A stretch of DNA of 64,000 nt from Vigna angularis (Eukaryota; Streptophyta; Magnoliopsida; Fabales; Fabaceae). This document shows, one piece after another, positions 1 to 58,129 of the stretch. The position numbers were made by a program, and so were the translations under genes. Every line of letters starts with the position of its first letter. Position 1 is the stretch's first letter. Below the pieces are notes generated by a model. The model ran no database searches and was not told the DNA's origin. It saw only the letters and a program-made list of their open reading frames with translations. The stretch lies in the NCBI RefSeq assembly GCF_016808095.1, contig NC_068973.1, positions 5,018,501-5,082,500 of the forward strand, read 5' to 3'.

Positions 1-159
1 TGAGGGTGGATCCATGAGTTTCAGTGCAGACAAATCTGAGAGGCCCAACAAGGGATGCCTCGGTCTTGGTACGAACTTTGAATATACAGATGCAACAAAT
101 GTGAGACTAACAAAGTTGACCATATCTTGGAAGGGCCAAAACACATGAAATAAAGTTGC

Positions 160-1170
160 CCAAAATTGTCCCCTAGTTTGGGAATTGGGGGAAGAGTTTG
201 AATGGGATTTGAATGTGTTCATGAATTTGTGATGAATATGGAAAGGATTGGCTTGAAAAGATTGCCCCAATTGGCTTGATTTTCCTTTGTATAATCTTGA
301 TTAACAGGGAGTTCCCTTCTTCCGAGGACATTTTTCTTTTTTTCATCATTTTTTTAATTGCATTGTTAGTCATTTTGTCTTGCCTCAAAATTAAGCTTTA
401 TGAAAATTTAAGCAACCATTATTCAATCTGTGTGGACTTTTATTGGGCTTGTAATGTGGCTTGGGCTAAGGGGTATTGAAGGAAAGGATATAAAGGCCCA
501 AATAAATGTTTGTGGGTACTTTTGAAAAACAGGAGTTACCATCTACACTTGTATCAACTATTTGTCAAATCTGTTTTGACTTCCCTTGCTAATTTGCAAA
601 CTTCACTCTTTGTTTGTCATCACTTTGTGACTCTTTTCAATTTTTGCTTTGCTTTTGCTGAATTCTCTTCATTTGATCACTAAGTGTGTTCTTCTTGCAA
701 TTTGAGTCGACTTCTACTGTGATGGTAACTCTTGTTTGGGTAAAATTTTGAAAAGAAAATTTCTTATTGGCTCAAATTTGGTATCAAAGGATATATTTTT
801 GTTTGTTTTTTTTTTTGGATGGAGAAAAATGGCCACACATCATTTCAAATTTTGGTTGTTTTATTTTCAAAAGATTAATTAAGAGACAAAGACTAAATGA
901 TCTCAACAGAGTCATTTTTCATTCTTTTTCATTTTTTTCATTTTTTTTTACGGATTCCAGGATCTCCCAAATGAAAGCAGTGGAGGTAACGGAAAATCTG
1001 CTCCGGAGTAAAACTTGGTGTTTATTATTTGGGCTCAAGGACATGATTGGGCCAATCTCTTGGTATAGTGAGGGCTAAAGGATGATGTTTTCAAGCGATG
1101 CACACACAAATATCTCTTAAGAATATGTGATTTGATCATTTGATTCCAGGAGATTATGACATCCATTATA
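160..1170 (-). repeat. Left copy of a diverged direct repeat inside the retroelement
   Basis: Segments around 255-330 (GATTGCCCCAATTGG, then a TTCCTTTGTAT block and a TTCTTCCGAGGACATT block) and 1072-1165 (GATGTTTTCAAGCGATGC, then ACAAATATCTC and GGAGATTATGACA) recur in the same order and orientation at 5565-5650 and 5880-5975. The copies are diverged and differently spaced. The rest of 1-1350 has no supported gene. Confidence 0.5.
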
Positions 1171-1352
1171 CTTATTTTTTTTTTAAATCTCATAAAATGG
1201 ATGATTTGCATCGAAAATAATTGACTCAACTTTTGCGTATTTTTTTTTTGGTTTTATGCATGAAGAAAAGTAATATGAAATGAAAATGATGATGCTAGTT
1301 GAAAAACAGATTTTTTTATTATTTTTGTTTTTGTATTTTTTTTTTGAAAATT

Positions 1353-1690
1353 GGGCTTTACGGACCAGCCTAGAAACTGGACCTTGCGGGCCGATATGGG
1401 AAATAGGCTTTGTGAGCCATTGGGGAAATTGGGATTTCTTGGCCAATGGAAACTGGGCCTTGCGGGTCAGCATGGAAGCTGGGCTTTGCAAGCCAGTATG
1501 GGAAATGGGCTTTGAGAGCTATTGTGGAAATTGATATTTTTCGGCCATTGTGGAAACTGGGCCTTGCGGGTCAGCATGGGAACTGGGCTTTGCAGGCCAG
1601 TATGGAAAATGAACTTTCTGGGCTAATGTGGAAAATGAGCTTGGGAACCAGTGCGGAAACTAGGCTTGGTGAGCAATGCAAAAATTGATA
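1353..1690. repeat. Degenerate minisatellite, about 26-bp unit, about 13 copies
   Basis: The unit is roughly GGGCYTTGCGGGYCAGYATG followed by GAAACT. Copies step at about 26 bp, so open frames crossing it on both strands (for example 1280-1534, 1446-1688 and 1183-1491) are repeat artefacts. The array lies in the retroelement between base 1 and the WUS-like cassette. The stretch 1690-3000 that follows is T-run-rich noncoding DNA with no supported gene. Confidence 0.8.
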
Positions 1691-3016
1691 TGAGAAAACT
1701 TGATTTAGAAAAAACGTTTGAAAAATAAAAATGTTTTTTTTTGTTTTATTCATTTACATAATGTAAAAAAACATTAAACATATTAGAAAAAAGTTTTTGT
1801 GTTTTTTATCTTTTAGAAATAGAAATTAATTTGAAATATGCATGTAATGGGCCGAGTTGGGCCAAAAAACGTTTGAAAACCTGAGGAGAAGTAACAAAAG
1901 GAAGTTGGACTTACCAGACACATTGACCCAATGGATCAGATGACCTGAGCCGTGTGAACTTGACACAAGAAGATGACCAAGAAAACATTTTTTTTTCAAA
2001 GTTTACGGAACAAGCTAAAAGAAATTCATTCTTTTTAATTTTGTGTTATGAAAGGATTTCACAAGATTGGAGTAAAGACAAATTTGCAACACCACTAGAC
2101 TCAATGGGCCCAACACTATTCCTCTTTTACAACCATGACAAAATCTTCAGACAAAGGTCTGAATTCCATTATTTTTTATTTTTTTTTTGCACAAATACTT
2201 GTTCACACAAATGAAAAGGGAAATTATGAAATGAAAACACAAAATCTACATAAACATGCATCTTTTATTTTTTCAGAAATTCAGATGCACTGGTTCAAGA
2301 GAAACCACATATGACAAAGGGCCTAATGGGCTCAAAAACTGTTCATCTTTCATTCTCAGATTTTTTTTTAAAAAAAATTCAAAGAAAATCACACAGGACA
2401 ATTTGAACAAATGTACTAAACATCATTCAACAGCAAAAATGTGAAAACAAAATATTTTTGACATATTTTCAAAAGAAGTAGACTCTGAGAGAAAAACCAC
2501 GAAGGCCATTGGGCTTAATGAGCTCAAGCTCTGTTCCCTTTTTTTTCTTTATTTCTTTTTAGATTTATTCAAAATGCAGAAGAAGAAGGAATAAAAATCA
2601 AACAAAATGGTGTGATGTGAAATTACAAACATGCCAAAACAATTCTTCACTCAAATTTATATTTCAGAAAGAATTGGGTTCAAAGAAGGCTAACATGGTA
2701 ATGAGGCCCAATGAACCTGAAAAATGTCCTTTATCAAGCAAATGAAAAACAATTTTGAACACTTCAAATTTTACAACACTCCAATTATTATTTTTTTGAA
2801 AATTTTCCATTTATCATATTTTTGATTTTTTTGTTTTATTATTTTTTTTTGGTGAAATCGGATCATCTAAGAAGTCTTGAATTGGGCCGGATCGACCCAA
2901 CAAAACCATACCCGTTTTCAGATTTTCAAAATTTTTTTTTTGAACTCAGAAAGCAATCAGACCGACACCAGACGGTTGCAGCGACCGGAACTGTAGCCAC
3001 AATGGATTTGCTCAGC

Positions 3017-3023
3017 TATAAAA
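3017..3023 (+). promoter_or_regulatory. TATA box of the antisense WUS-like gene
   Basis: TATAAAA occurs in the context AGCTATAAAACAGG. A strongly CT-rich leader (3061-3120) begins about 35-45 bases downstream, as expected for a plant transcription start with a pyrimidine-rich 5' UTR. The candidate start is therefore near 3050, ahead of the leader intron at 3209. Position and context were read directly; activity is inferred. Confidence 0.5.
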
Positions 3024-3049
3024 CAGGTATCCCTTCGGGGTCGAGCGAC

Positions 3050-3976
3050 ATTTTCTGATTTCGCTCTCTCTCTCTATCCTTCTCTTTCTCCCTCTTCTCT
3101 CTCTCCTCTCTCTTCCTTGAGTGTCTGGACTTCTGCGAGGCTCCTCCGTCCCCGCCTTCCACAGCGTCCGTGCCTTCCGAGGAGCTTCCGTGTGCCTTCC
3201 ACTTCCAGGTAAGTCCTCTGAGCTCTTCGATCTTCTTTATTTCCTTTAAGTTTTTCCTTTTTGTTTTCCTTCCTTCCATCCTTCCTTCTCTGCTTTTCTG
3301 TTCTTTCGATCTTTCTTTCTCTGTTTTTTTCGTTTTTCTTTTCCTTTACGATTTCTGGTTTATTTTTTACTCTCTAGCTTTCTGCATCTGCCTTCCTTTC
3401 TTGTTCCTTTTTTTGTTTTTTCTTTTCTGCTTTCCTTTCCTGCAAGCTCTTTATTTTCTTCTGCTTTCTGCTTTGTCTGCTTTTATTTCCGTCTTGCTCT
3501 TCTTTGCTTTTCTTTCTGAGTCTTCTTTCTTCCTCTTTTTTTTTTTAAAATTTAAAAACTTAAAACACTTAAAAACACAACTGTCTTAAACTTAAGGGGT
3601 ATATAGGCTGGAAACCAGACGTTTATCTCCCTTCGATTGAAGGTATGGCAGAGACAATCGGGTAGAACAACGCCACGTACCCCATAAAAACAGAAAACTT
3701 AAAAAGAGAATTTTAATTGTATGAACCGGACATGGACAAATGGACAAGGACAAAAGGACATAGATCCGTTTAGGACCCTCTTGCAAGGACCGTGAAACAG
3801 ATCCGAGACCAGACACTGAAATAACAAAGACCGACCGGACAAGATAAACTTAAAAGGAAACAAAAACACATAAAGAAAACACTGAAAAAAACTTTTTGTT
3901 TTATGCTTTTGTTATGTTCTTGTTCTTTTTATTTTTTATATATTTTGTTTTGTTTCAGAAAACTTAGAGAGGAAAG
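3050..3976 (+). other. 5' leader of the WUS-like gene with a UTR intron (3209-3958)
   Basis: A GC-richer leader ends CCAG before a consensus donor GTAAGT at 3209. A long T-rich stretch leads to TTTTGTTTCAG ending at 3958, and 18 bases later the ATG (3977) sits in the context AAAGATGAGC. The open frames at 3170-3589 (Phe/Leu-rich) fall inside this T-rich intron and are not genes. A leader intron followed by a coding intron suggests the cassette came from genomic DNA rather than from a spliced mRNA. Confidence 0.5.
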
Positions 3977-4530
3977 ATGAGCGAGATGGAGATGGAGAGG
4001 TACACCAGTCAGCGGTGGCGACCTACTGACGATCAGGTCAGAATGATGACCCACATCTACAATTACGGGGTCACACATCCTAGCAGAGCTCAAGTCGTTG
4101 AGATTGCATCTCGACTAAGGGCTTTCGGAGAAGCCAGTGAATACAATGTGCACTGCTGGTTTAACAACCACGGCAATCGGGTCAGGCGCTGGCAAGCGGA
4201 GATAGACCCCACTGGCACTCAGTTTTCACAACTGCCGCTATACATGTATGGTAAGCATCCTGATCTCCTCCACCCCCTATTTTTTTGAAAATTTCCCTCT
4301 TCATCTTAATATTGACAAATTTTTTGTTTTATTTTTTTTGGAAAGAATACGACTGGGTGATCATGAGGGCGCCAAGGCTGCTGGACTTGTTCCCCGTTCC
4401 GATCATCATTGACGACGATAGGGACGAACGACAAATCCCTCCACCCATGCTTCTCACATTCCGGACCAGAGCTCCCTCGACGGAGCTCTCCCTCAGACCA
4501 CCGCAACCAGCTCGGGAATTTTTTCGCTGA
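3977..4530 (+). CDS. Mini WUSCHEL-type homeodomain protein carried antisense in the retroelement; join(3977..4250,4346..4530)
   Basis: The two exons give 152 residues. Exon 1 ends TATG before GTAAGC (donor 4251) and exon 2 starts after an acceptor at 4344-4345; the junction is phase-compatible (phase 1) and the spliced frame runs to TGA 4528-4530. Residues about 11-74 match the WUS/WOX homeodomain: RWRPTDDQ at the start, then NVHCWFNNH with the conserved W61, F62 and N64 of recognition helix 3. WOX proteins normally read NVFYWFQNHKAR, so this copy is diverged. Residues 103-110, LLDLFPVP, resemble the WUS-box (TLxLFPxx). Residues 137-142, TELSLR, hold an LxL core like an EAR repression motif. 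An acidic run (IIIDDDRDER) lies between. Family role: WOX proteins are nuclear transcription factors of stem-cell niches. The protein is much shorter than typical WUS proteins and opposite in strand to gag. Function here is inferred only. It could be a decaying captured gene, but the frame is intact. Confidence 0.75.
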
Positions 4531-5469
4531 ATTTCCTTTTGATTTTATTTTTATATTTTCATGGTCTGTAATATTAACGATCACCAGTGATCGAACCCTG
4601 AACAATCTTTTATTTGCTTTTGTTATCTGCTTTATTTTTGTTTTTTATTTGAATTTGTGACTTTGCACTTCTTTGTTATATCTGTTTTTTTTCTTTTTTA
4701 TGCATTTTTATTTTATTTATCATGATGCCAAGATCGCATGAGTGTATCCGACCTTTACTGTAATTTCCTGCTCCGATGATGAAATGAAATTAGATTTTTA
4801 TGGTTTTTTTTTTTTCAGTATAAACAAAAATTTCTAATTTAAACTAAATAATGGAAAACCGGGTTCAACAGAAAATAAATTATTTACAAAGAAAATATGG
4901 AAAAAAGACTTCGAATGAAATGAGATCCAAAGCGAACATCATGAGCATGAAAAACAAAATTTTGAAATCATTATGCATATGAGACAAAGCAGAAATGGGA
5001 AGAGAGGAACAATGAACTCGTAAAACAATTTGAACAAATTGAAATTTTGATGACTCCCTTTTTTTTTGAAAATTTGTTTTTGTGCAATGAAATCGGACTC
5101 AAGTAAAAGCTTTCAAAAACGACTTCCTTTTTTTTTCGAGTTAATTATCTTACTTGCAGTCATCAAATTAGTAATTATTTTCAAAGCTTAGAAAAGTGAG
5201 GAATGTAACATATCCGAGGTCTAACTTTGGGATTACATTTTGAATTTTTCTCCCGAGACATCAACGTACGCATGCTTGAAGAGACTCGCAAGTGAAAAAT
5301 GGGAGTTGTTAGAATGGTTTGGGAGAAAACGGGATAGTCACGCTAATGTCACCTCATACGTTCTGTAAAGTAGACGAGTGCCGAAGCGAAACACGAGGTA
5401 CCTAAAACGTTTCCCCGATTTGGTATAATGAATATGATGATGAATCCATGATAATTTGTACAAAAACTC

Positions 5470-5990
5470 AAGTAAGATCAAAGCTGCCCCAGTTTTTTTT
5501 ATTATTATTTTTTTTTGCATGGGGCTCTGTTTGGAAGAAGTAGTGGGTATGAAAAAGGGAAGGCTAAAAGGATGGCCCCAAATGGGTTCGATATTTTTGT
5601 ATGCTTTAGGCTAGTTGGCAAGGAAATCCTCTCTTCCTGAGACATTATTCATTTTCATCTCTCACCTCCCCCTCCCCCCCTTTTTTTTTATATCACCCTT
5701 TCGGGTTTCTGAATCTAAGTGACCTATTCTCCCCTTTTTTTTTCAATGGGTTTAAGGATCAACCTACTAGCGCAAGCGAGAAAACTTCTGGCCAAACCAA
5801 TTTGCCCCGGGGTGAAGGTTTACTTTGTTACCTAGGGCATTGGCAATATTGTTGGGAGGAATCTTCTATTTTTGAAGGGTGATATTTTTCAAGCACCATG
5901 CGCACAAACGTCTCGAGAGAAAGCATCAAATTGTTATTGTTTATTAGACATTTGACCTCGGAAGAGTATGACACTGTAACTTTGCCTTTG
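5470..5990 (-). repeat. Right copy of the diverged direct repeat inside the retroelement
   Basis: This is the counterpart of the segment at 160-1170: GGATGGCCCCAAATGGG and a TTTTTGTAT block, a CTCTTCCTGAGACATT block, then GATATTTTTCAAGCACCATG, ACAAACGTCTC and GGAAGAGTATGACA. The two copies bracket the WUS-like cassette. The neighbouring stretches 4531-5470 and 5990-6333 hold no gene I can support. Confidence 0.5.
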
Positions 5991-6333
5991 ATTATTTTTT
6001 TCTATTTTCGAAAAACAAGAGTTTGACAATCTGCAAGAAGACAAATGACTCAGGATTTCTTCAATTTTTTTTTTGTTATTAATTTTTTTTTTTGACACCC
6101 TATTAGGATACGATTTCCAGTAAACCTTGGAGATACCAAGTAATGAAAGTTTACATTAACAGTTCATGGATGAAAGCGTGACATCAATGAGCATAAACCT
6201 CATTAAAGCTCGAGCAAAACAACATCAGTTCCGACTTTTACAATAACTTATGCTTTCCCAAATAATCCGAGAGTCATCTTCACTCGTCCATGGCATTTGT
6301 AGAGGTGAACTTACGTCTTGCCACAGTGCTGGA

Positions 6334-7748
6334 TTAACTTTCTTCAAACTTTAAACATCCTGAATCAATCAAAGATTGCACTTTACGTTTTAGAGCCTTG
6401 CATGCTTCAGTTGAATGTCCACACGTCCCTCCATGATAATCACACCTGGCATTTATGTCATAGCTCCTTGGATACGGAGGTCATATAGGCCTAGTTGGAC
6501 AAATCTTTATGAGGTTTCTGCGGAGAAGATCTGGTAGTAGCTCTGTATAGGTCATGGGGATAGGAGTGAAGTTGACGCCCTTCTCATCACGATTGTAATT
6601 TCTTCGTTCAGTTGCTCGACTAGACCCATAGGAATGCGACATTTGAGGACAGGCAATAAAATGTGAATTAGCTCTTCGTTCTTTGCCTTTCTCACGTCTA
6701 GGATCATACTCATTTAAACTTGCTACTAGCTCTGGGCCTAGTGCAAATTTTCCATTTCTTATGCCACTCTCAACCCTCTCTCCAATTACTACTATGTCAG
6801 TAAAACTTGAGGAGACTGAGATGCTTAACATGTGCTCATAAAATGGTGGTTGCAGAGTACTCGAAAACGTGGTAGTCATCTCCTTGTCGTTCAGACTCGG
6901 TTCTACTTGAGCATCTATCTCTCTCCACCTTTGGGCATATTCTCTGAATGATTCAGATTCTTTCTTCACCATGTTCTGCAATTGTGCTCTGTCAGGTGTC
7001 AAATCTTTATCATATCCATACTGCCTTAGGAATGTCTCAACCAGATGCTTCCATGAGTAGATGTGAGTAGTATCTAAGCGCATGTACCAAGTTAGAGTTT
7101 CGTCAATTAAACTTTCTTGGAAGAAGTGAATCAAAAGTTTTTCATCGTGGGCATAAGCTGCCATTTTCCTGCAGTACATGCTTATGTGGCCCCTCGGGCA
7201 AGTATTTCCCCGATATTTCTCAAACTCTGGCAACATGAACTTTGGAGGTATCACCACGTCAGGAACCAAACATAGTTTTTTAGCATCTCCAAATTCAAAA
7301 CTTCCTTCACCCTCTATGGCTCTCAACCTCTTCTCAAGGACTTCTAATCTGCTCTTATCGTCCTTAAAATCTGCTGGTGTAATGACACAAGATGGAGACT
7401 TCGTCTCAGGTTCTTTTTCATTATCATGCTCTCAATACCTAGTTGGATCGTCTGCCTAGGAATTGTAAAAGTGGTTGCCCCAGGCTCGTCTTCTACTTCA
7501 GCTGCATTACCTTCGGCCTTTTGAGTGTCAAGATGTCTCGAGTCCACTCCTGAGGGTGGAGTATAATTCGGGGGAAGACCATAGGAAGGGAAAGTTTGTG
7601 CTTCTGGAACTCCTTGTTGTGATCGTTGTGTGCATAAACATCCAGGACTTTGTAAGGCATCCAGGGTCTTTAGGACCTGTCTCATTTGTTCCTTCAGCTG
7701 TCGGATATCGGCCTTCATTCCCTCTTGAACTTCTACTTGGTTCTCCAT
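6334..7748 (-). pseudogene. gag polyprotein of the Ty3/gypsy element, broken by one frameshift and one stop
   Basis: The frame starts at ATG 7748 with a basic coiled-coil-like stretch and runs about 105 codons in one frame. Near 7425-7440 the sense continues in another frame, so an indel has occurred there. The second frame carries the retrotransposon gag core, including DETLTWYMRLD, WKHLVETFLRQY and FREYAQRWRE. A TGA at 6481-6483 interrupts it. The same frame then continues to a TAA at 6334-6336 and contains a CX2HX5HX4C knuckle, a variant of the usual CCHC nucleocapsid finger, about 20 codons after the stop. Gag would build the virus-like particle that packages element RNA. With two lesions this copy is probably dead, though it might be mobilised by partners. 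Confidence 0.85.
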
Positions 7749-8442
7749 GATTTTGCCACTGGTTCGTGTCCTTTAGGGTGTCTTAGATGCTTAGCTGTAT
7801 TTTTTTTGTGAAACAAATTAAGAAAAAAGAAAAATAAAAATAAAAAAGAAAAGAAAAGAAAACATAGTTCAAATTCTCTAGTCAGAAACTACAAAGCTGT
7901 GAAAATATTTGCCCCGGTATAATTTTGGAAATTAACACGAAACAGAGTCAATAAGGCGATTCATCATTCAGAAATCTCCAAAATGCGAGACATAGGAATT
8001 CTTGGTCAACCATCGCAGGCTTTAGTCATCACATTCTTCATTTGTCTGATCAGTTTCTTGCAGCAATTGAGGAATGTTTCAATCCCCTTAGGCGGGTTGA
8101 TGATTGACATTACAGACCCAGCATCAGCTAATAGCCTAGGAACATTTTCAATGACTTAATTGATGAGGAAAGATAATTGTGAGAGACTTCTCTTCCAACT
8201 CTTCGTAACTTGTCCTTCTTCAACGACATATTCCTTCATCTGACTCATCAATCTTTTATGTCCCCTTTTTTTAGTTGACGCCAACATTCCTTCTAGTTTT
8301 GTCACTGCTGCTTCTATCCACTGCTCATCATTTTGAAATTTCTTCTCACAAGTTGGGTAGGGGAAATTAATCTGAATTACAACTTGACTGTCTTAACCCT
8401 TTATGTGATTCATTGGCTAAGGGAAACTTCCACTAACAGTCC

Positions 8443-9125
8443 ATGACCTTGGGCCTTTCTTTGAAGCGAACAACATTTCCCCGAGTGTCTTTAACTTGAT
8501 GAAATATTTCAGCAAAAGATTCATGCCTCATATGATCTGCAATGTGGCGAGAGATGCAGGCGTTAGCGATCCTCTCAGGATACTCAAATTATTTTTTGCG
8601 CTAACATATGATTGCAATTAATACACCACCTAATACCCATGAGGGGTACATTAGGATACCTCCTGCAATGATATGTAGTCTGATTTATGCTGCCAAGGGA
8701 CACACCATTTATCTTGTTCTTCGTTTAAACTTGCACAAAGTTGCGCTCATTCATTTGCTCTTTTCACATGTAATTCACAAGGAACAGCCTAAGACAAGCG
8801 CAAAAGTGCCTAAAAGTCACTTCTTTTTCCAATGGTGACCCATGTTCACCTGACTGAGTACCTGTGATGGACTTTTTGTACAAAATCCAATTTTCTCTCG
8901 GGTAATCGTTTACAATGTCCTTGTAATCGATTACATACTACAATAATTCGTCCATGGGGTACAGGGAATTTAAGGCGTCTCCAGTCTCACGAGAAATGAA
9001 CCACAAATACACCACTGGTAGACAACATAACATCTTTCCCTCTTTAAGTTCGTAACAACGATTAAGGGTCCCATAAACTTCAGCCAGGACGGGACATGGG
9101 TATATTGCCCGATTTAGTTGTATAG
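8443..9125 (-). pseudogene. Decayed ORF1-like region between LTR and gag
   Basis: Two minus-strand open stretches lie between the primer site and gag. One, about 8965-9125, contains LNRCYELKEGKMLCCLPVVY followed by LWFIS and then a stop. The other, about 8443-8580, contains ERIANACISRHIADHM and FHQVKDTRGNVV. Ogre-lineage elements carry an extra ORF1 here, and the CCLPVVYLW-like motif recalls the DUF7745-type proteins annotated in plants. That family assignment is from memory and weak. Multiple stops separate the pieces, so this is a relic. The rest of 7749-9980 is leader without a supported gene. Confidence 0.35.
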
Positions 9126-9980
9126 AGCTTTGGCCTCAAGACTTGCATTTAATATTTTCCCAAATTCTTCCCCTCTGACAAACTCACCAAATTCTTATAC
9201 CCCTTGACTCAAATTCCATGTTAATTTCCATTTTTAGCTTAAGGGCCTTAATCACAACTTTATAATTTTTGACTAGAATCCACAAAATGTGACAAGACTA
9301 TGAAGAAAAACAATGAGCGAAGAAAAAGGAAAAAGCAAAAGAAAGAAAGAAAAAAAAAAGATAAAGAGATATGGTGATATGTACAAGGTGCGTGATTTTT
9401 ATTAAGCAAACATGAGGGTTATAAGAATACACATTTCTCCCTTTTGTGCCTTATCAAAGGTTGGATGACTGAAGTTCTAAGGCCAAATATATGCACTCAC
9501 AAGGATAGCTCCCTAATGCTTAAATCAGGCCACCAGAGCTATGGCTCTTTTCACTGTTTCTCCACAACATTCAAAGTAATCAACTAGATGTGGAGACCCA
9601 AATGAAGAGAACAGACTCTGGCTGGGGTTCTCACGATAGCCAAACAGGAAGTATGTCCCAAATGACACCGCTACACAACCCCTCTATTTCTAAGTTGCGC
9701 TCAGACCCGGGTATAGGGCCCCACTCACGATATGCATATTGTGTGTGTGTGAAGGGAGAATGCAATTGTACACCCCAAACCCTCACCTGCAAAACAACCA
9801 GAAAATTCCCAGGCAGATATAACATGTTTTTCTACCCTAGGGTTCAATATAATCAAAACAAACACACATACAATTATGACAAATATCAAATAAGGATAAA
9901 GAAAAAAAAAGGGAAGAAGAACACAAAGAAAAACCACATTGAATTCGCACATCTAATTAAATGGCCTGACTCTCCTCACG

Positions 9981-9998
9981 TCCCCAGTGGAGTCGCCA
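9981..9998 (-). other. Primer-binding site of the Ogre/Tat-like element
   Basis: The minus strand reads TGGCGACTCCACTGGGGA, two bases inside the LTR end. It starts with TGG, the complement of a tRNA 3' CCA. Ogre-type elements are known for a tRNA-Arg-type primer site of this form; the exact tRNA match was not tested. The site fixes the orientation of the element and the inner LTR border. Confidence 0.8.
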
Positions 9999-10320
9999 TC
10001 TGTCGCAACCGGAATCGCGACGGGACGACGATCCAATAAAAAAGAATAAATATTGAAAAGAGATTTTGGAGTCGCCACCATAGTTTATTCTGGAAAACTA
10101 CGGAAAAAAACCATAAAATGATAAGGCATGGTCAAATTGAACCAGATTCTTGGTTCGGGAGTCGGTTACGTGTAGGGAAGGTATTAGCACCCTACAACGC
10201 CTGCCCTAAGGCAGTACCTTTAACTAAATGTGCGAATGTGGATGTGGTTTTCAAAGTATTTAACTTCCCCTTAAAATAAAACTCTAAAGAAACAAACAAT
10301 ATTTTTTAGTTTTTTGGGCC

Positions 10321-10540
10321 CGACAAGGATCGACCTTGCTCCTACGTATTCTCATTCAGAATGAGAAATCAGGGTTCCGTAGTTCATTTGAAAACTGTTT
10401 GAGATGTTTGTTTGGAAATTTGTTTGAGAACTTGTTATGGATAATTTGGATTTTTGGGAGAATGAGCCTGACAAGGACTGGCCTTGCTCCTACGTATCTC
10501 CACTTTTGATGGAGAATCAAGGATCACGTAGTTCTGCAAG
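10321..10540. repeat. Two-copy block within the LTR
   Basis: A block starting GACAAGGA and continuing CTTGCTCCTACGTAT, with GAATCARGG...CGTAGTT about 40 bases later, occurs at about 10322-10385 and again at about 10470-10535. Each copy holds a short inverted pair (CAAGGA...TCCTAC; ATTCTCATTCAGAATGAGAA in the first copy) that could fold. The two copies differ at several positions. Confidence 0.7.
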
Positions 10541-10617
10541 GCGATATTGTTTGTAGTTTGAAAAATAGATGTTTTTTTAGTTTTTGAAGATTTTATATTT
10601 TTTGTATTTTTTATTTA

Positions 10618-11056
10618 GGAGAATGAAAAGGTTTTTAGCACAAGGACGATGCGTGCGATCACACATGTGCCTAAACCTTTGAAACGTATTTTTGACGTTT
10701 TTTGAAGAAAGAGAAAAGGTTTTGGGCACAAGGACGATGCGTGCGATCACACATGTGTCTAAACCTTTAAAACATATTTTTGGGATTTTGAAAAAAGGAA
10801 AAGGTTTTTAGCACAAGGACGATGCGTACGATCACACATGTGCCTAAACCTTTGAAACATATTTTTTTGGCATTTTTTGAAGAAAGAGAAAAGGTTTTTT
10901 TAGCACAAGGACGATGCGTACGATCACACATGTGCTTAAACCTTTGAAACGTATTTTTGGTATTTTTTGAAGAAAGAGAAAAAGTTTTTGGCACAAGGAC
11001 GATGCGTGCGATCACACATGTGCCTAAACCTTTAAAACATATTTTTGTAATTTTTA
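10618..11056. repeat. Five tandem copies of a roughly 90-bp unit in the LTR
   Basis: Each unit contains GCACAAGGACGATGCGTRCG followed by ATCACACATGTGYCTAAACC, then an AT-rich spacer and GAAGAAAGAGAAAAGG. Copies start near 10620, 10707, 10793, 10882 and 10972. The CACATGTG palindrome is kept in every unit while the AT-rich linkers vary in length. Confidence 0.9.
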
Positions 11057-12720
11057 ATTTATCTTTTAATTTTGTATTTTTCTTTTTGTCTTTTGTTTTA
11101 TTTTTATTTTTACTTTTTTTAATTTTTTTTTATGAACAAATCTGACAAAATATAAGATACAATATACAAGTGAGGTATCATACAAAGGGTTACATACAGT
11201 AAAAAAAACTAACAATCAAACAAGTAATAAAAATAAAGAAATAAAGGCTTAAAAATAAAGCGAGAGAATCAAACCAACAAGAATAGGAGTGCATAGATGA
11301 AAACCAGTGTTGCGTGCGGAGTAAAATTGGAGCCCCCTTAGTTTGGGCCAAAATCGCTCTTTCCAACTTTTGTATCTGTTAGGAGTGAAAGGATGAAACT
11401 GGTGGTGTATCCTGAAATGTGTGAGCCCAATTCTTCTTTCTTTTTTATTTTTGTTAGCAAGAATGGGCTTAAGCCAAATGAAATGGAGGTATGAAAATGA
11501 AAATGACGGGGTGCGTGAAGGAGGAAAATACTTTTTTTTGTTTTGTTTCAATTTCATTTTATATTTTTTTTGTTATTATTTTTTTATTTTGTTGTTTATG
11601 TGGATCTGGCCCAAGGGGTGCTGCCACCTCCTCCCATTTGTGCTAAACGAGACCAAAGTCTCATTTCCTCTTCATTTGAATCCAAAGGTAGCTGAGCTCC
11701 TCCACGTACAACCAAACTTCCGCCCGAACGGCAGCCGCGAGCCACGGTCCATGACGACGTTCGTTGTCGGAGCCATTGCCGATGGAGGCGAAAGCTCTCC
11801 TCTTCCGCTGCTCGCTGTACCGCGATCTGGACACGCTCTCGCAGCCACCAACGATGCCGGCCATCCGCTGCGTCAGCTGCTGCAACCACCAAGCCGGGGT
11901 CGTCGCTTCTTCGATTCAGTCTGGCGCGCCACTGCTTCTCCGATCCAGCTACCACGCCGCAAATGACCACCGAGTCACTGCCTCTCTGGACCAGCCACCA
12001 CATCACGCCGCCCCGATCCGGCCAGCATCATTGCTTCCTCCCTCCTTCTCTTCTTTGTTTCGAAATTGGTAACCCAGGGAGGGGTAAACACTGGATTAGT
12101 TCTGCTCTGTGTATTGATTTGTGTATTGATTTGGGTGTTTGGATTAATTCTCTTTACTTGCAGGGAAACGACTTTGGGGATTTTGGTACTACAAGTGAGG
12201 GTTAATGATGATGGGTGTTCCCGATGGTTGTGGGATAAGGGGTAAGGATGAAGAGATGATGCTGGAGGTGGTATATGGATGAAGATGATATTAAGATGAT
12301 GAAGATTGGGGAAATGGCCGTGAGGTAAAATGAAGGTGACGATGTTAGGTTGATGGAGGGGAATAGAGGTTGGAAAATGATGAGAGTCGGATGATGATGG
12401 CCTCAAGTAGCCGTGGGTATGCCCCGATTGATAGATTTCCCTCTGCTTAAATTGGCAAAAGAACGCAAATTGTCGGCGGGTTTCATTGGCTCATAAGTGT
12501 CGGCTGTAAGGATGGCCGAGAGATGTTTATGGGTTAGGATGAAGATTGGTCAGAGTGTAGAATGATGGGTCTCCCCAGTAGCTGTGTTTTTCTTCCTCCC
12601 CCTCTCTTGTGAATTATGTAGGCTTTAACACAGTAAGAGGTGAGAGTGTCGGTAGCTGTGATTGGAGGATTGGTAAAGGTAGAAATTTGTAAACTGTTCT
12701 CCATGTGATACCTCAAATGG

Positions 12721-31045: not shown

Positions 31046-38276
<7,231 letters not shown>

Positions 38277-55232: not shown

Positions 55233-57088
55233 CTATGGAGAAGCATGGTTAATGCGATTTGGCTTGAGCAATTTGATGATGGACATGACTGAAATAATGA
55301 GGAGAAGAATGAAGCCAATGAAAGAGACAACAAGGGCAGCACCACTTCTGTTGCAATAGGTTTGAAATTTGTCACATATCTTATCCCATCTTGCATGTGA
55401 ATTACCATTTTTTCCCAATTCTGACATGAATGTTGCTGCACCATCACCAGCTGATGCCAGAGCCATAGCCATCTTCACCAAAGTTATAACATATATCACT
55501 TTTCATACACTACTTTCATACAACAAACATTTACGAATATATATAATTATTATAATAAATAGTGCATTGATGGTGTATACTTCGAATGTAGAAAAGGTTT
55601 ACACTCGCACATCATATTTAGTTTGAATTTAAAGATATAATAGAATTTGAAAAACATAAAATTCATTTTTTTTAATAATCATGTTTCTTAATAATCATGT
55701 TTCTTATATGAAATAACAATCACCGATTTTATTATTGATTAAAATCTCCATTGAAGTGAGATTTTAAAACTATTTTATCACACTAATATGAATATATAAC
55801 TTATTTTTTTATAGTAAATAATAATGGAAAGAGATGTAGTTATTTCATGTGTAACTTTTATCACGAAATTCATGTAATAGTATTTCGTAAATATTAGATT
55901 TCGTTAATCTAATTGTTAGAATGAGATCGACTTCTAATTATTATTTTTTATCGATGAAAAAGAATGAAATGAAGTAAGTACATTTACAGTGTCTTAGAGT
56001 TACAACATAATATTGCACACTTGCGAATTCTTATTTTGAGTTTACAAAATTTTAAATGATTTAAAAACATTGGCATCAATTAATCTTATTTTAAATGTAT
56101 AACTGATTTTTCAAGATATAAATGAATTTTCAGTTTATCTAAAATCTAAGCATGCATACGTATACTCGTGAGATATGCCATAATTTAGTATTTTGATTTG
56201 TAAATGTGTATTTTAGAAAAGTTATTAATTGTATCAATTGTACATCACATTAAGTAATTTTAAATTACATGAAATTTATAGTCCATAGTTGGTTCAGTGA
56301 AAAATGTAAAAGTTATTAAATAAATTGAGTAAAATATTACTAAAATAAATATTTTTTTTCAGTAAGGATATATAATATTGATTATTACAGTAAGAAGAAA
56401 ATTATTTTTATTATAATTACAATAATATACCAATATATAAAGTTGATATAATAAAAAATATTGAATTAAATTTAAAAATTAAACTTAATAAAAATAGAGT
56501 GACTACCATGTCTAATATGGCAATGAACAGAAGCCTGAGTCCTTTGTAGTCATATTGGGGTCCTAATACATCCATTGCTATCATCACCAAATTATGCAGA
56601 CTTGCATTTGCATTTGCTACAACAAAGAACCTGCATCATCACCGATTATCTATCATCATAAATTAAACGTATTGTCGGAAAAAAAAATGGTATAATAATA
56701 TCAAAACAAACAATAAATCTCATTAAAATAAATTCTTTTAAATTACTATGATAAAATGATACCATTTTAAGAGTAAGTTTATATCAAACTTAATTTCACC
56801 GTATATATTATAAATTCGTCTTTCATAAATAAAAGTTTAAGAAACATACACAAAAGCCGGAGTTTGGTTAAACTTTGCAGCAAGAGTTGCTGTTATCGGA
56901 GAGTTACCAACGTTGGCAACTACGAAGCTTTTGGTCTGTTTGTTGAGAGCCATGACAAGTGTTGCAGATGCAGTGGCAAAAAACGCAACCACTCTGAGGG
57001 ACAAAACAACCCAATCCTTCTTCTTTGCCTTTGCCTCTGCAACTACACTCAAACCAACCTCAACTTTCTCTCCATTTTCTAAGGCCAT
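55233..57088 (-). CDS. CASPL1B: CASP-like membrane protein, CASPL1B type, 200 aa; complement(join(55233..55472,56507..56630,56850..57088))
   Basis: Three exons keep frame: exon 1 ends TTTGT before GTATGT, exon 2 ends GACATG before GTAGTC. The start chosen is ATG 57088 (MALENGEKVEVGL). An in-frame ATG at 57136 lies too close to the TATA motif at 57154-57160. Four transmembrane helices: about 25-45 (VLSLRVVAFFATASATLVMA), about 72-90 (PAFVFFVVANANASLHNLV), about 108-128, and about 168-190 (ALVVSFIGFILLLIISVMSI), with both ends cytosolic. The loop has GKNGNSHARWDKICDKF and a conserved pair of Cys. CASP family proteins form membrane scaffolds that guide local wall modification; the CASPL members are broader and their role is less known. 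Length is normal and intact. Confidence 0.9.
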
Positions 57089-57153
57089 TCTGCAAACCTC
57101 TGTCAAAACTATATCTGCTGTGATGGTGCTGCTCATATCAGTGGCTAGGGTTA

Positions 57154-57160
57154 TTATATA
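57154..57160 (-). promoter_or_regulatory. TATA box of the CASP-like gene
   Basis: The minus strand reads CTATATAATAACCC, about 66 bases before ATG 57088. Confidence 0.5.
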
Positions 57161-57188
57161 GATAGGACAGTGAAATTGGTCAACCATA

Positions 57189-58129
57189 TCATTTGTTAAG
57201 TCTAAGAAGCCATGTTAGGGTTCTTTCTCAGGATTTCTTGATTGGTGTAACCAACGCAGAACTTCAGGTGGTTGCTGGTTGGTGAAGAAATACTACTTTT
57301 ACTTTCACTTTCTGGGAACTATTTTGCTTAATTTAACAAAGCTAATGCATTATTCTATTCAAATATGAAGGATTTTTAAATGTTTGTTTGAGAAATGCGA
57401 TTCTTAGGTAAAGAAGGTTTTCCTACCACATCTTTTCTCAAATTGCAACACTATCATATACACAGTAAAAAATGATCGTCTTGATCTTCTGTACTACCAG
57501 TTATTATGTGATGCTCAGCATAGCATTTATATTTTACTCACCAGACAATCTTTTAGGTTTCAACTTTTGGAAAACACATATTACCAATATACTTAAATTA
57601 TAATATATAAATAATTATAATTTAATAATGGAAATTTATTGTGTGAGTTCTATCAATATTTTCTTTTGTATGCACATTTGTAATTTTTATTTTATCCTTT
57701 TTAGTAACAGTTATAGACAGTTTTATAAATTAGAAAACAATTTCTCTCAGTCACACTTAATAATTGATTTAATAATTTTATTTTTTATTAGATATTATTT
57801 AATAAGTTTAAAGTTTTAATAATTTTACTTTTTATAATTAATATTAGTAATATTATTTATAAAAATATTATTTAATAATAAAATAATTCAAATAATGAAC
57901 ATCATAATTTCTAAATATATTTTGTCACCACAATAAATTATTTTATTATGATTTTTTCTATAAATTTATTTAATAAGTTTACTTTTTTAATAATAAATAT
58001 TATTATACATAAAGTAAAGTAATATATTTGTCACTTTTCAAATTGAGAAGATGTTTAACAAATATTAAAAATAAATATTTAATATAAAAATTATACTATC
58101 TTATTATTCAATTACTTAGTATTCAAGCC

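Follow-up and report, generated by a model that had tools for sequence, protein, structure and literature searches.

The stretch of Vigna angularis DNA considered here raises the question of why an intact homeodomain gene should sit inside a retrotransposon, antisense to it, and of whom its product would serve. The window, by which we mean the whole stretch of 64 kb that was analysed (C4:5018501-5082500 of an assembly of 448 Mb in 33 contigs), carries on its plus strand a spliced gene for a 152-amino-acid product with a homeodomain, an LLDLFP motif and an EAR-like end, and the element around it is oriented on the minus strand. We consider it probable that the product is an element-encoded repressor, derived from the WUSCHEL-related homeobox (WOX) family, which serves a Tat-type Vigna retrotransposon and whose cassette has been both selected and exchanged.

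The architecture that an initial annotation had read from this DNA (TATA box, CT-rich leader, leader intron, homeodomain exon, second intron and a third exon with two motifs) was confirmed from the sequence, as was its observation that the 152-residue frame is intact beside a broken gag. The features of the gene are as follows:

3017..3023, plus strand: TATA box of the antisense gene, read from the sequence.
3060..3208, plus strand: CT-rich leader exon, predicted from the sequence; its start position is not fixed.
3209..3958, plus strand: predicted leader intron, with the borders CAG/GTAAGT and TTTCAG.
3977..4250, plus strand: coding exon 2, residues 1-91.
4004..4192, plus strand: WOX-type homeodomain, residues 10-72, from profile, sequence and fold.
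4139..4189, plus strand: recognition helix (helix 3), residues 55-71.
4251..4345, plus strand: intron 2, predicted.
4346..4530, plus strand: coding exon 3, including the stop.
4375..4407, plus strand: WUS-box-like motif, residues 102-112.
4474..4497, plus strand: EAR-like motif PSTELSLR, residues 135-142.

Upstream, the flank at 2921-3043 matches the upstream part of the V. angularis gene model P0059 (66% of 41 amino acids), and the segment 3030-3208 has a GC content of 0.57. Models P0011 and P0046 join the exon at a point that corresponds, by eye, to the end of the leader intron, and the site of intron 2 is visible in the intron read-through models P0023, P0066 and P0067. The homeobox profile PF00046 accepts the domain, as the initial annotation had supposed (27.9 bits against a cut-off of 22.9; Pfam 2.1e-6); the nearest solved structures are WOX proteins, and the fold is that of the WUSCHEL (WUS) homeodomain.

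Three protein searches, which recover only relatives with shared exact words, so that a Vigna-only result is no proof of absence elsewhere, returned 79 protein clusters, 76 of them from V. angularis, two from V. umbellata (P0073 and P0076) and one from V. radiata (P0072). The 58 clusters of the first search comprise 257 member sequences, a figure that mixes several assemblies of one species with truncated models and is not a locus count. Three lineages carry different signatures, namely WFNNHGNR in F1, to which the window protein belongs, WFQNHGNR in F2 and WFQNYGYRE in F3; pattern sorting placed 49 clusters in F1, 13 in F2 and six in F3, with 11 unsorted. Members of F2 and F3 are 35-51% identical to the window protein (the chimeric P0073, 40%), and most retain the homeodomain core, LDLFPIP and S.ELSLR, the last two being their WUS-box-like and EAR-like motifs, which persist at this distance in the majority of members; the EAR-like motif is found in most F2 proteins and in the F3 proteins. 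The exceptions are P0065, with a decayed homeodomain and LSLFPIP, P0068 and P0073, with other C-termini, P0069, which lacks LDLFP, and P0072 and P0064, with one change in S.ELSLR. The consensus of the WUS-box is TLxLFP; the form TLDLFP occurs in F3, where P0074-P0079 carry TLDLFPIP, and most F1 and F2 proteins have LLDLFP or LLNLFP. A pattern search of IMG/VR gave six stretches, with no relative among them. The V. umbellata model P0073 joins an F2 homeodomain exon to a seeming arabinogalactan-type peptide; PF28140 was listed on it once and was absent on a repeat scan, and in this model an exon of the element has possibly been spliced to a host gene.

Is the gene kept, or simply carried? The genome homeodomain survey scored 150 places of the 631 candidates on the PF00046 list. 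The F1 sample consisted of 20 lower-scoring places of about 1 kb each, 19 of them F1 and one F3 (L054), with the window copy added; L050 was dropped as a near-duplicate of L049, which left 19 copies for the ratio of nonsynonymous to synonymous differences (pN/pS), with intervals from a codon bootstrap. These two loci (C2:42052978 and C2:42074832) lie about 22 kb apart and encode identical protein letters, a segmental or tandem duplication. In F1, pN/pS was 0.18 (0.13-0.24, n = 19) overall, 0.16 in exon 2, 0.03 (0.00-0.08) in the recognition helix, 0.23 in exon 3, and 0.15 for the WUS-box plus EAR motifs (0.18 and 0.11, respectively, when taken alone). Across 20 copies, exon 2 had a mean nonsynonymous distance (dN) of 0.058 and a mean synonymous distance (dS) of 0.548 (190 of 190 pairs); because a homeodomain-profile list favours conserved homeodomains, this dN is lowered by the choice of copies. 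Exon 3, found in 20 of 20, stood outside the criterion by which copies were picked. The donor G/GTAAG and the acceptor AG of intron 2 were present in every one of the 20 F1 copies, with a mean intron distance of 0.297 and exon matches 80 to 117 bases apart. Exon 2 was free of stops in 19 of 20, the window copy included; L061 holds the one stop, and L065 lacks the ATG. The 20 F3 copies (L019, L020 and L031-L048) gave a pN/pS of 0.23 and 0.10 in helix 3, with a mean dN of 0.079 and dS of 0.528 for 90 of the 190 pairs, after exclusion of 100 that were saturated or had a dS of 0.05 or less; four of the 20 frames hold a stop. The initial annotation had set purifying selection against neutral decay of the frame, and it is purifying selection under which the element keeps its homeodomain gene.

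A captured gene could also be a neutral passenger that looks intact only through the youth of its copies or the choice of intact ones. Copies were indeed picked with a homeodomain profile, gene annotation is biased towards intact frames, and the stops in exon 2 of four of 20 F3 and one of 20 F1 copies are what a passenger might show. The copies have nevertheless diverged, at the synonymous sites and in the intron alike, yet they retain their low overall pN/pS, and exon 3 and the splice sites are conserved as well, although neither entered into the choice of copies; we therefore regard this explanation as very unlikely. A second possibility is that the antisense transcript matters rather than the protein, with double-stranded RNA formed with the genomic RNA tuning silencing, as has been proposed for antisense open reading frames (ORFs) of plant long terminal repeat (LTR) elements generally (PMC7264820). 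The near absence of replacement changes in the recognition helix and the kept splice sites would be left unexplained by it, and it seems to us rather improbable.

A count of parsimony steps on the tree (28 protein rows, 235 steps) shows where conservation is concentrated. Helix 3 took five steps against 27.4 expected, and the chance of any 17-residue stretch being as low is 0.0011 or less at tenfold CG/CHG mutability; the WUS-box took nine against 16.2 (P 0.03) and the EAR motif seven against 11.6 (P 0.10). The loop between helices 2 and 3 is freer: residues 48-54 (4118-4138) have a pN/pS of 0.47 (0.18-1.70), and the hypervariable residues 49-54 take 32 of the 235 steps. Conservation measured on F1 protein rows varies with the rows chosen; this count and the codon analysis are the conservation tests that we retain. 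A set of 34 rows chosen by the recognition-helix pattern, in which the homeodomain appeared far more conserved (0 of 20,000 permutations), was circular and was dropped; 26 rows forced into a global alignment gave no deficit for the homeodomain, probably because gene models lacking that exon had been aligned to it, and star simulations on the 26- and 27-row sets were set aside since they ignore shared ancestry.

What carries the gene is best seen in related copies. In the F1 copy L069, which aligns to window positions 3061-5067 at 84%, an antisense open frame of 1213 amino acids next to the homeodomain gene encodes reverse transcriptase, RNaseH, RVT_3 and integrase, and a second of 1207 amino acids encodes gag, a G-patch and an aspartic protease match below the Pfam cut-off; the two ORFs (gag-protease and pol) abut. 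Within the gag-protease frame, the G-patch domain (6021-7241 of L069, E 2.3e-11) follows the protease match. The F3-type copy L031 has an antisense frame of 1149 amino acids with reverse transcriptase, RNaseH, RVT_3 and integrase, and L047 has reverse transcriptase, RNaseH and integrase beside the gene, RVT_3 not being seen. The angiosperm Tat elements, Ogre and Retand, are marked by an additional RNase H placed between the first one and integrase (PMC6317226). Because L069 and L031 both show the order RNaseH, second RNaseH, integrase, the element that carries the gene is an LTR retrotransposon of the Tat type of Ty3/gypsy. Of the initial annotation's statement that a WUSCHEL gene lies antisense within an Ogre/Tat-like element, the Tat type thus stands, from the pol beside the gene in these two copies, and the naming of the gene as WUSCHEL is not supported. 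The cassette itself, which had been taken to move with the element, occurs in many other copies, and several of the copies inspected have element flanks.

In the window, the element comprises the following:

1345..1660, strand not applicable: tandem array of 26-bp units that precedes the gene and belongs to the element's 3' part.
6481..7431, minus strand: gag (Retrotrans_gag, PF03732), disrupted by a stop and a change of frame.
7344..7772, minus strand: frame in a different phase that lies upstream of gag, has no Pfam match and is probably the N-terminal part of gag.
8584..9135, minus strand: two pieces, each in its own frame, left from an upstream ORF with DUF7745 (E 7e-7 and 3.3e-10).
9980..9998, minus strand: candidate primer binding site tggcgactccactggggac, read from the sequence.
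10001..10627, minus strand: 3' part of the 5' LTR, outer end not fixed.
10594..11057, strand not applicable: 88-bp tandem array, probably within the LTR.

Similarity to L040 starts exactly at 10001 (84% of 328 and 82% of 234). No second LTR copy was found within the window, where the element runs off the left edge, and the 3' LTR is either beyond that edge or lost. Between 4880 and 6480, eight frames had no Pfam match for pol, and the pol pieces of L031 found no match in the window at 1e-5. The scanned pieces of the window hold DUF7745 and not the plant mobile domain PF10536, and the window protein matches PF00046 alone, without TRP28 (PF04195), the other antisense frames of the element being only partly scanned. 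The candidate primer binding site may be of the tRNA-Arg type, a feature of the Ogre lineage (PMC9289625). Ogre elements also have an intron between the gag-protease and pol ORFs and an ORF with the plant mobile domain, and Retand elements have an antisense ORF with TRP28; with a primer site of putative type, DUF7745 in place of the plant mobile domain and no TRP28 in this protein, the element may belong to either. Elsewhere in the window, the minus strand holds a host histone demethylase-like gene (32431-37050, JmjN and C5HC2 pieces) and a fragment with a CASP domain (56837-57214, E 1.8e-9). A scan for bacterial-type promoters and terminators gave six and two sites against 5.2 and 2.1 expected and is irrelevant to a plant gene.

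One might suppose instead that these genes are an ordinary multicopy host WOX family merely lying among transposons. The annotation does name copies WUSCHEL-related homeobox 1, 2, 4, 5-like and 8-like, and most of the F3 copies fetched have neither gag nor pol in the scanned frames. However, the flanks of other copies match the element of the window: ten model extensions were tried, and those of P0016, P0057 and P0059 match at the 26-bp tandem array, that of P0059 also in the promoter region, that of P0046 in the leader intron, and that of P0004 about 100 bases from the primer site (31 of 31 and 19 of 20 residues), with P0058 matching in exon 2 only, in another frame, and P0011, P0048, P0051 and P0053 giving no match. 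With pol beside the gene in L069, L031 and L047, and with a tree that sets the 37 element homeodomains apart from 20 host WOX proteins, a host family is scarcely credible.

The element is also not a fixed assemblage. The pol of L031 is 84% identical in DNA to that of L069 over 3923 columns, and L031 aligns to window positions 1-1453, in the 3' region, at 81%. Its homeodomain exons, by contrast with its pol, have no blastn match to L069 at 1e-10. They lie in a region that matches those of L044 and L047 at 85-87% identity, with 77% for one adjoining piece, and the pol pieces of L047 share only 24-39% protein identity with those of L031. At 4328-5711, L031 thus has a homeodomain cassette of another lineage in an L069-like backbone. 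Therefore, with an L069-like pol and an L044/L047-like homeodomain in one copy, the homeodomain cassette has been swapped between element lineages by recombination, inside an element that is otherwise similar. The window element is probably another mosaic, to judge from a gag 44% identical to that of L069 beside a gene region identical at 84%.

Where did the gene come from? In a tree of 57 homeodomains, a branch supported at 100/97 parts 20 host WOX proteins of the same genome from the 37 element homeodomains; the tree has a midpoint root, 62 columns and long branches, and it replaced one with Arabidopsis thaliana homeodomains. A WUS clade of 11 host genes (96/97) contains no element rows. The gene descends from a plant WOX homeobox gene of one clade or another; a single origin of the element homeodomains is the simplest reading, and they are not a recent copy of any of the 20 host WOX compared. 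Signals of the donor conflict, in that the WUS-box-like and EAR-like motifs point to the WUS clade and the homeodomain does not.

In WUS, R38, N90 and R94 read bases, K82, N83 and Y86 bind phosphates, and I66 and F85 dimerise (PMC7203112). The representatives of F1, F2 and F3 compared keep R38, W39, N90 and R94; in the window protein, P0061 and P0076, K82 is replaced by Y, Y86 by C, K92 by G and F85 by H or Y, F1 additionally has Q89 replaced by N, and some F3 copies differ further, for example L044 and L047 with H at position 86. Because the base readers are kept and the backbone and dimer contacts replaced, the protein should still bind DNA, with another affinity, partner or motif than WUS. 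It has to be asked, then, whether it competes with host WUS or WOX proteins at WUS-type sites, acting as a dominant negative or as ectopic WUS in meristems. The kept R38, N90 and R94 and the two repression-type motifs would allow it, but the contact and dimer residues are replaced in each lineage's representative and the homeodomain falls outside the WUS clade, and we find such competition unlikely. The suggestion of the initial annotation that the element spreads WUS-like activity was not borne out either, with the homeodomain apart from the 20 host WOX, its contact residues replaced, and neither TGAA nor TGAATGAA enriched.

We favour the view that a WOX-derived repressor serves the element. 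Lying antisense between pol and the 3' LTR of a Tat-type element, the gene would be transcribed from its own TATA promoter into a spliced mRNA, and the protein of about 150 residues would enter the nucleus and bind DNA through its homeodomain. The WUS-box-like and EAR-like motifs may recruit TOPLESS-type corepressors, and the repressor might then regulate the expression of the element itself or of host genes that limit it, in either case with benefit to the element. Several points weigh against this view. Firstly, the gene, its protein and its splicing are read from the DNA sequence, the window copy is defective, with a broken gag and no detectable pol, and L069 is the sole F1 copy read with its gag-pol side. 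Among the 18 F3-type copies of 10 kb each (L031-L048), only L031 and L047 showed reverse transcriptase and integrase in a scan that covered selected long frames; L035 and L045 have gag (that of L045 below the Pfam cut-off), and some other loci have unrelated transposons or host genes. Secondly, the choice of copies from the PF00046 list is corrected only partly by exon 3, the homeodomain as a whole shows no deficit (91 steps against 97.4 expected), and the ratio of divergence between homeodomain and rest is 1.02 in 27 rows taken from BLAST with no filter for a motif. Thirdly, LSLRP at the F1 C-terminus is an incomplete LxLxL, and WUS-like self-binding is without support, since TGAA, repeats of which WUS prefers, is not in excess over 1-11300 (189 against 210.5 expected) or in the promoter at 2400-3030 (20 against 15.7, P 0.13), and TGAATGAA occurs 0 times over 1-11300 against 1.55 expected.

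It is also conceivable, with a slim chance of being right, that a WOX-derived repressor of new DNA specificity is expressed in meristem or germ-line precursors and represses host genes that guard stem cells against mobile elements and viruses, so that insertions are inherited; evolutionary escape by the hosts would then be the reason why lineages swap the cassette. This is speculation, founded on a reported involvement of WUS in keeping RNA virus out of stem cells (PMC10589665).

For an element-serving repressor, the interest lies in an antisense protein that is a recognisable transcription factor, whose target sequence and effect on the element are directly testable because it has a relative of solved structure and strong selection on the DNA-reading helix. 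Moreover, retroelement genes can inflate the number of 'WUSCHEL-related homeobox' genes counted in Vigna genomes. A significant expansion of the WOX family was reported in V. reflexo-pilosa (PMC10357499), and it may consist of these element genes.

According to PMC7264820, plant Tat elements were recognised long ago to have antisense ORFs, for which no function is established. The aORF-3R of Tat/Retand elements (gene23 of Grande, RIRE2, Retand and PvRetro13; TRP28 proteins) occupies the same antisense place between pol and the 3' LTR, encodes a suspected nuclear or DNA-binding protein and has tandem arrays nearby (PMC7264820, PMC11963269); 'homeo', 'WUS' and 'WOX' do not occur at the start of a word in the main texts of these two papers. 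These frames encode TRP28, SMC or other domains, whereas the Vigna element has a homeodomain gene with introns and measured purifying selection. The protein family of HBZ of HTLV-1 is unrelated to the homeodomain protein. HBZ and other antisense retroviral regulators are likewise antisense nuclear regulators in a retroelement (PMC11963269), a positional analogy only. In the open-access literature searched, which does not extend to subscription papers such as the 2011 extra-ORF survey, no homeodomain gene in a plant retrotransposon is described. An orchid Ogre-like element with a 2-ODD N6-methyladenosine (m6A) demethylase (PMC9289625) is likewise a giant gypsy element related to Tat that has captured a cellular domain and stably retained it. 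Its cargo is an RNA-modifying enzyme, whereas the Vigna element has, on the antisense strand, a transcription factor gene under a putative promoter of its own. With the WOX proteins WUSCHEL and STENOFOLIA, the element proteins share the fold, the W39/R38 arrangement, N90, R94 and the WUS-box-like and EAR-like motifs; they differ in a homeodomain only about 40% identical, in the replacement of K82, Y86, F85 and K92 in the representatives compared, and in being compact (about 144-155 amino acids in typical F1-F3 models) and encoded by a mobile element. Antisense Tat ORFs and the stable capture of host domains were thus already known; what appears to be new, within the literature searched, is a homeodomain cargo, and the evidence of selection on it is unusually strong.

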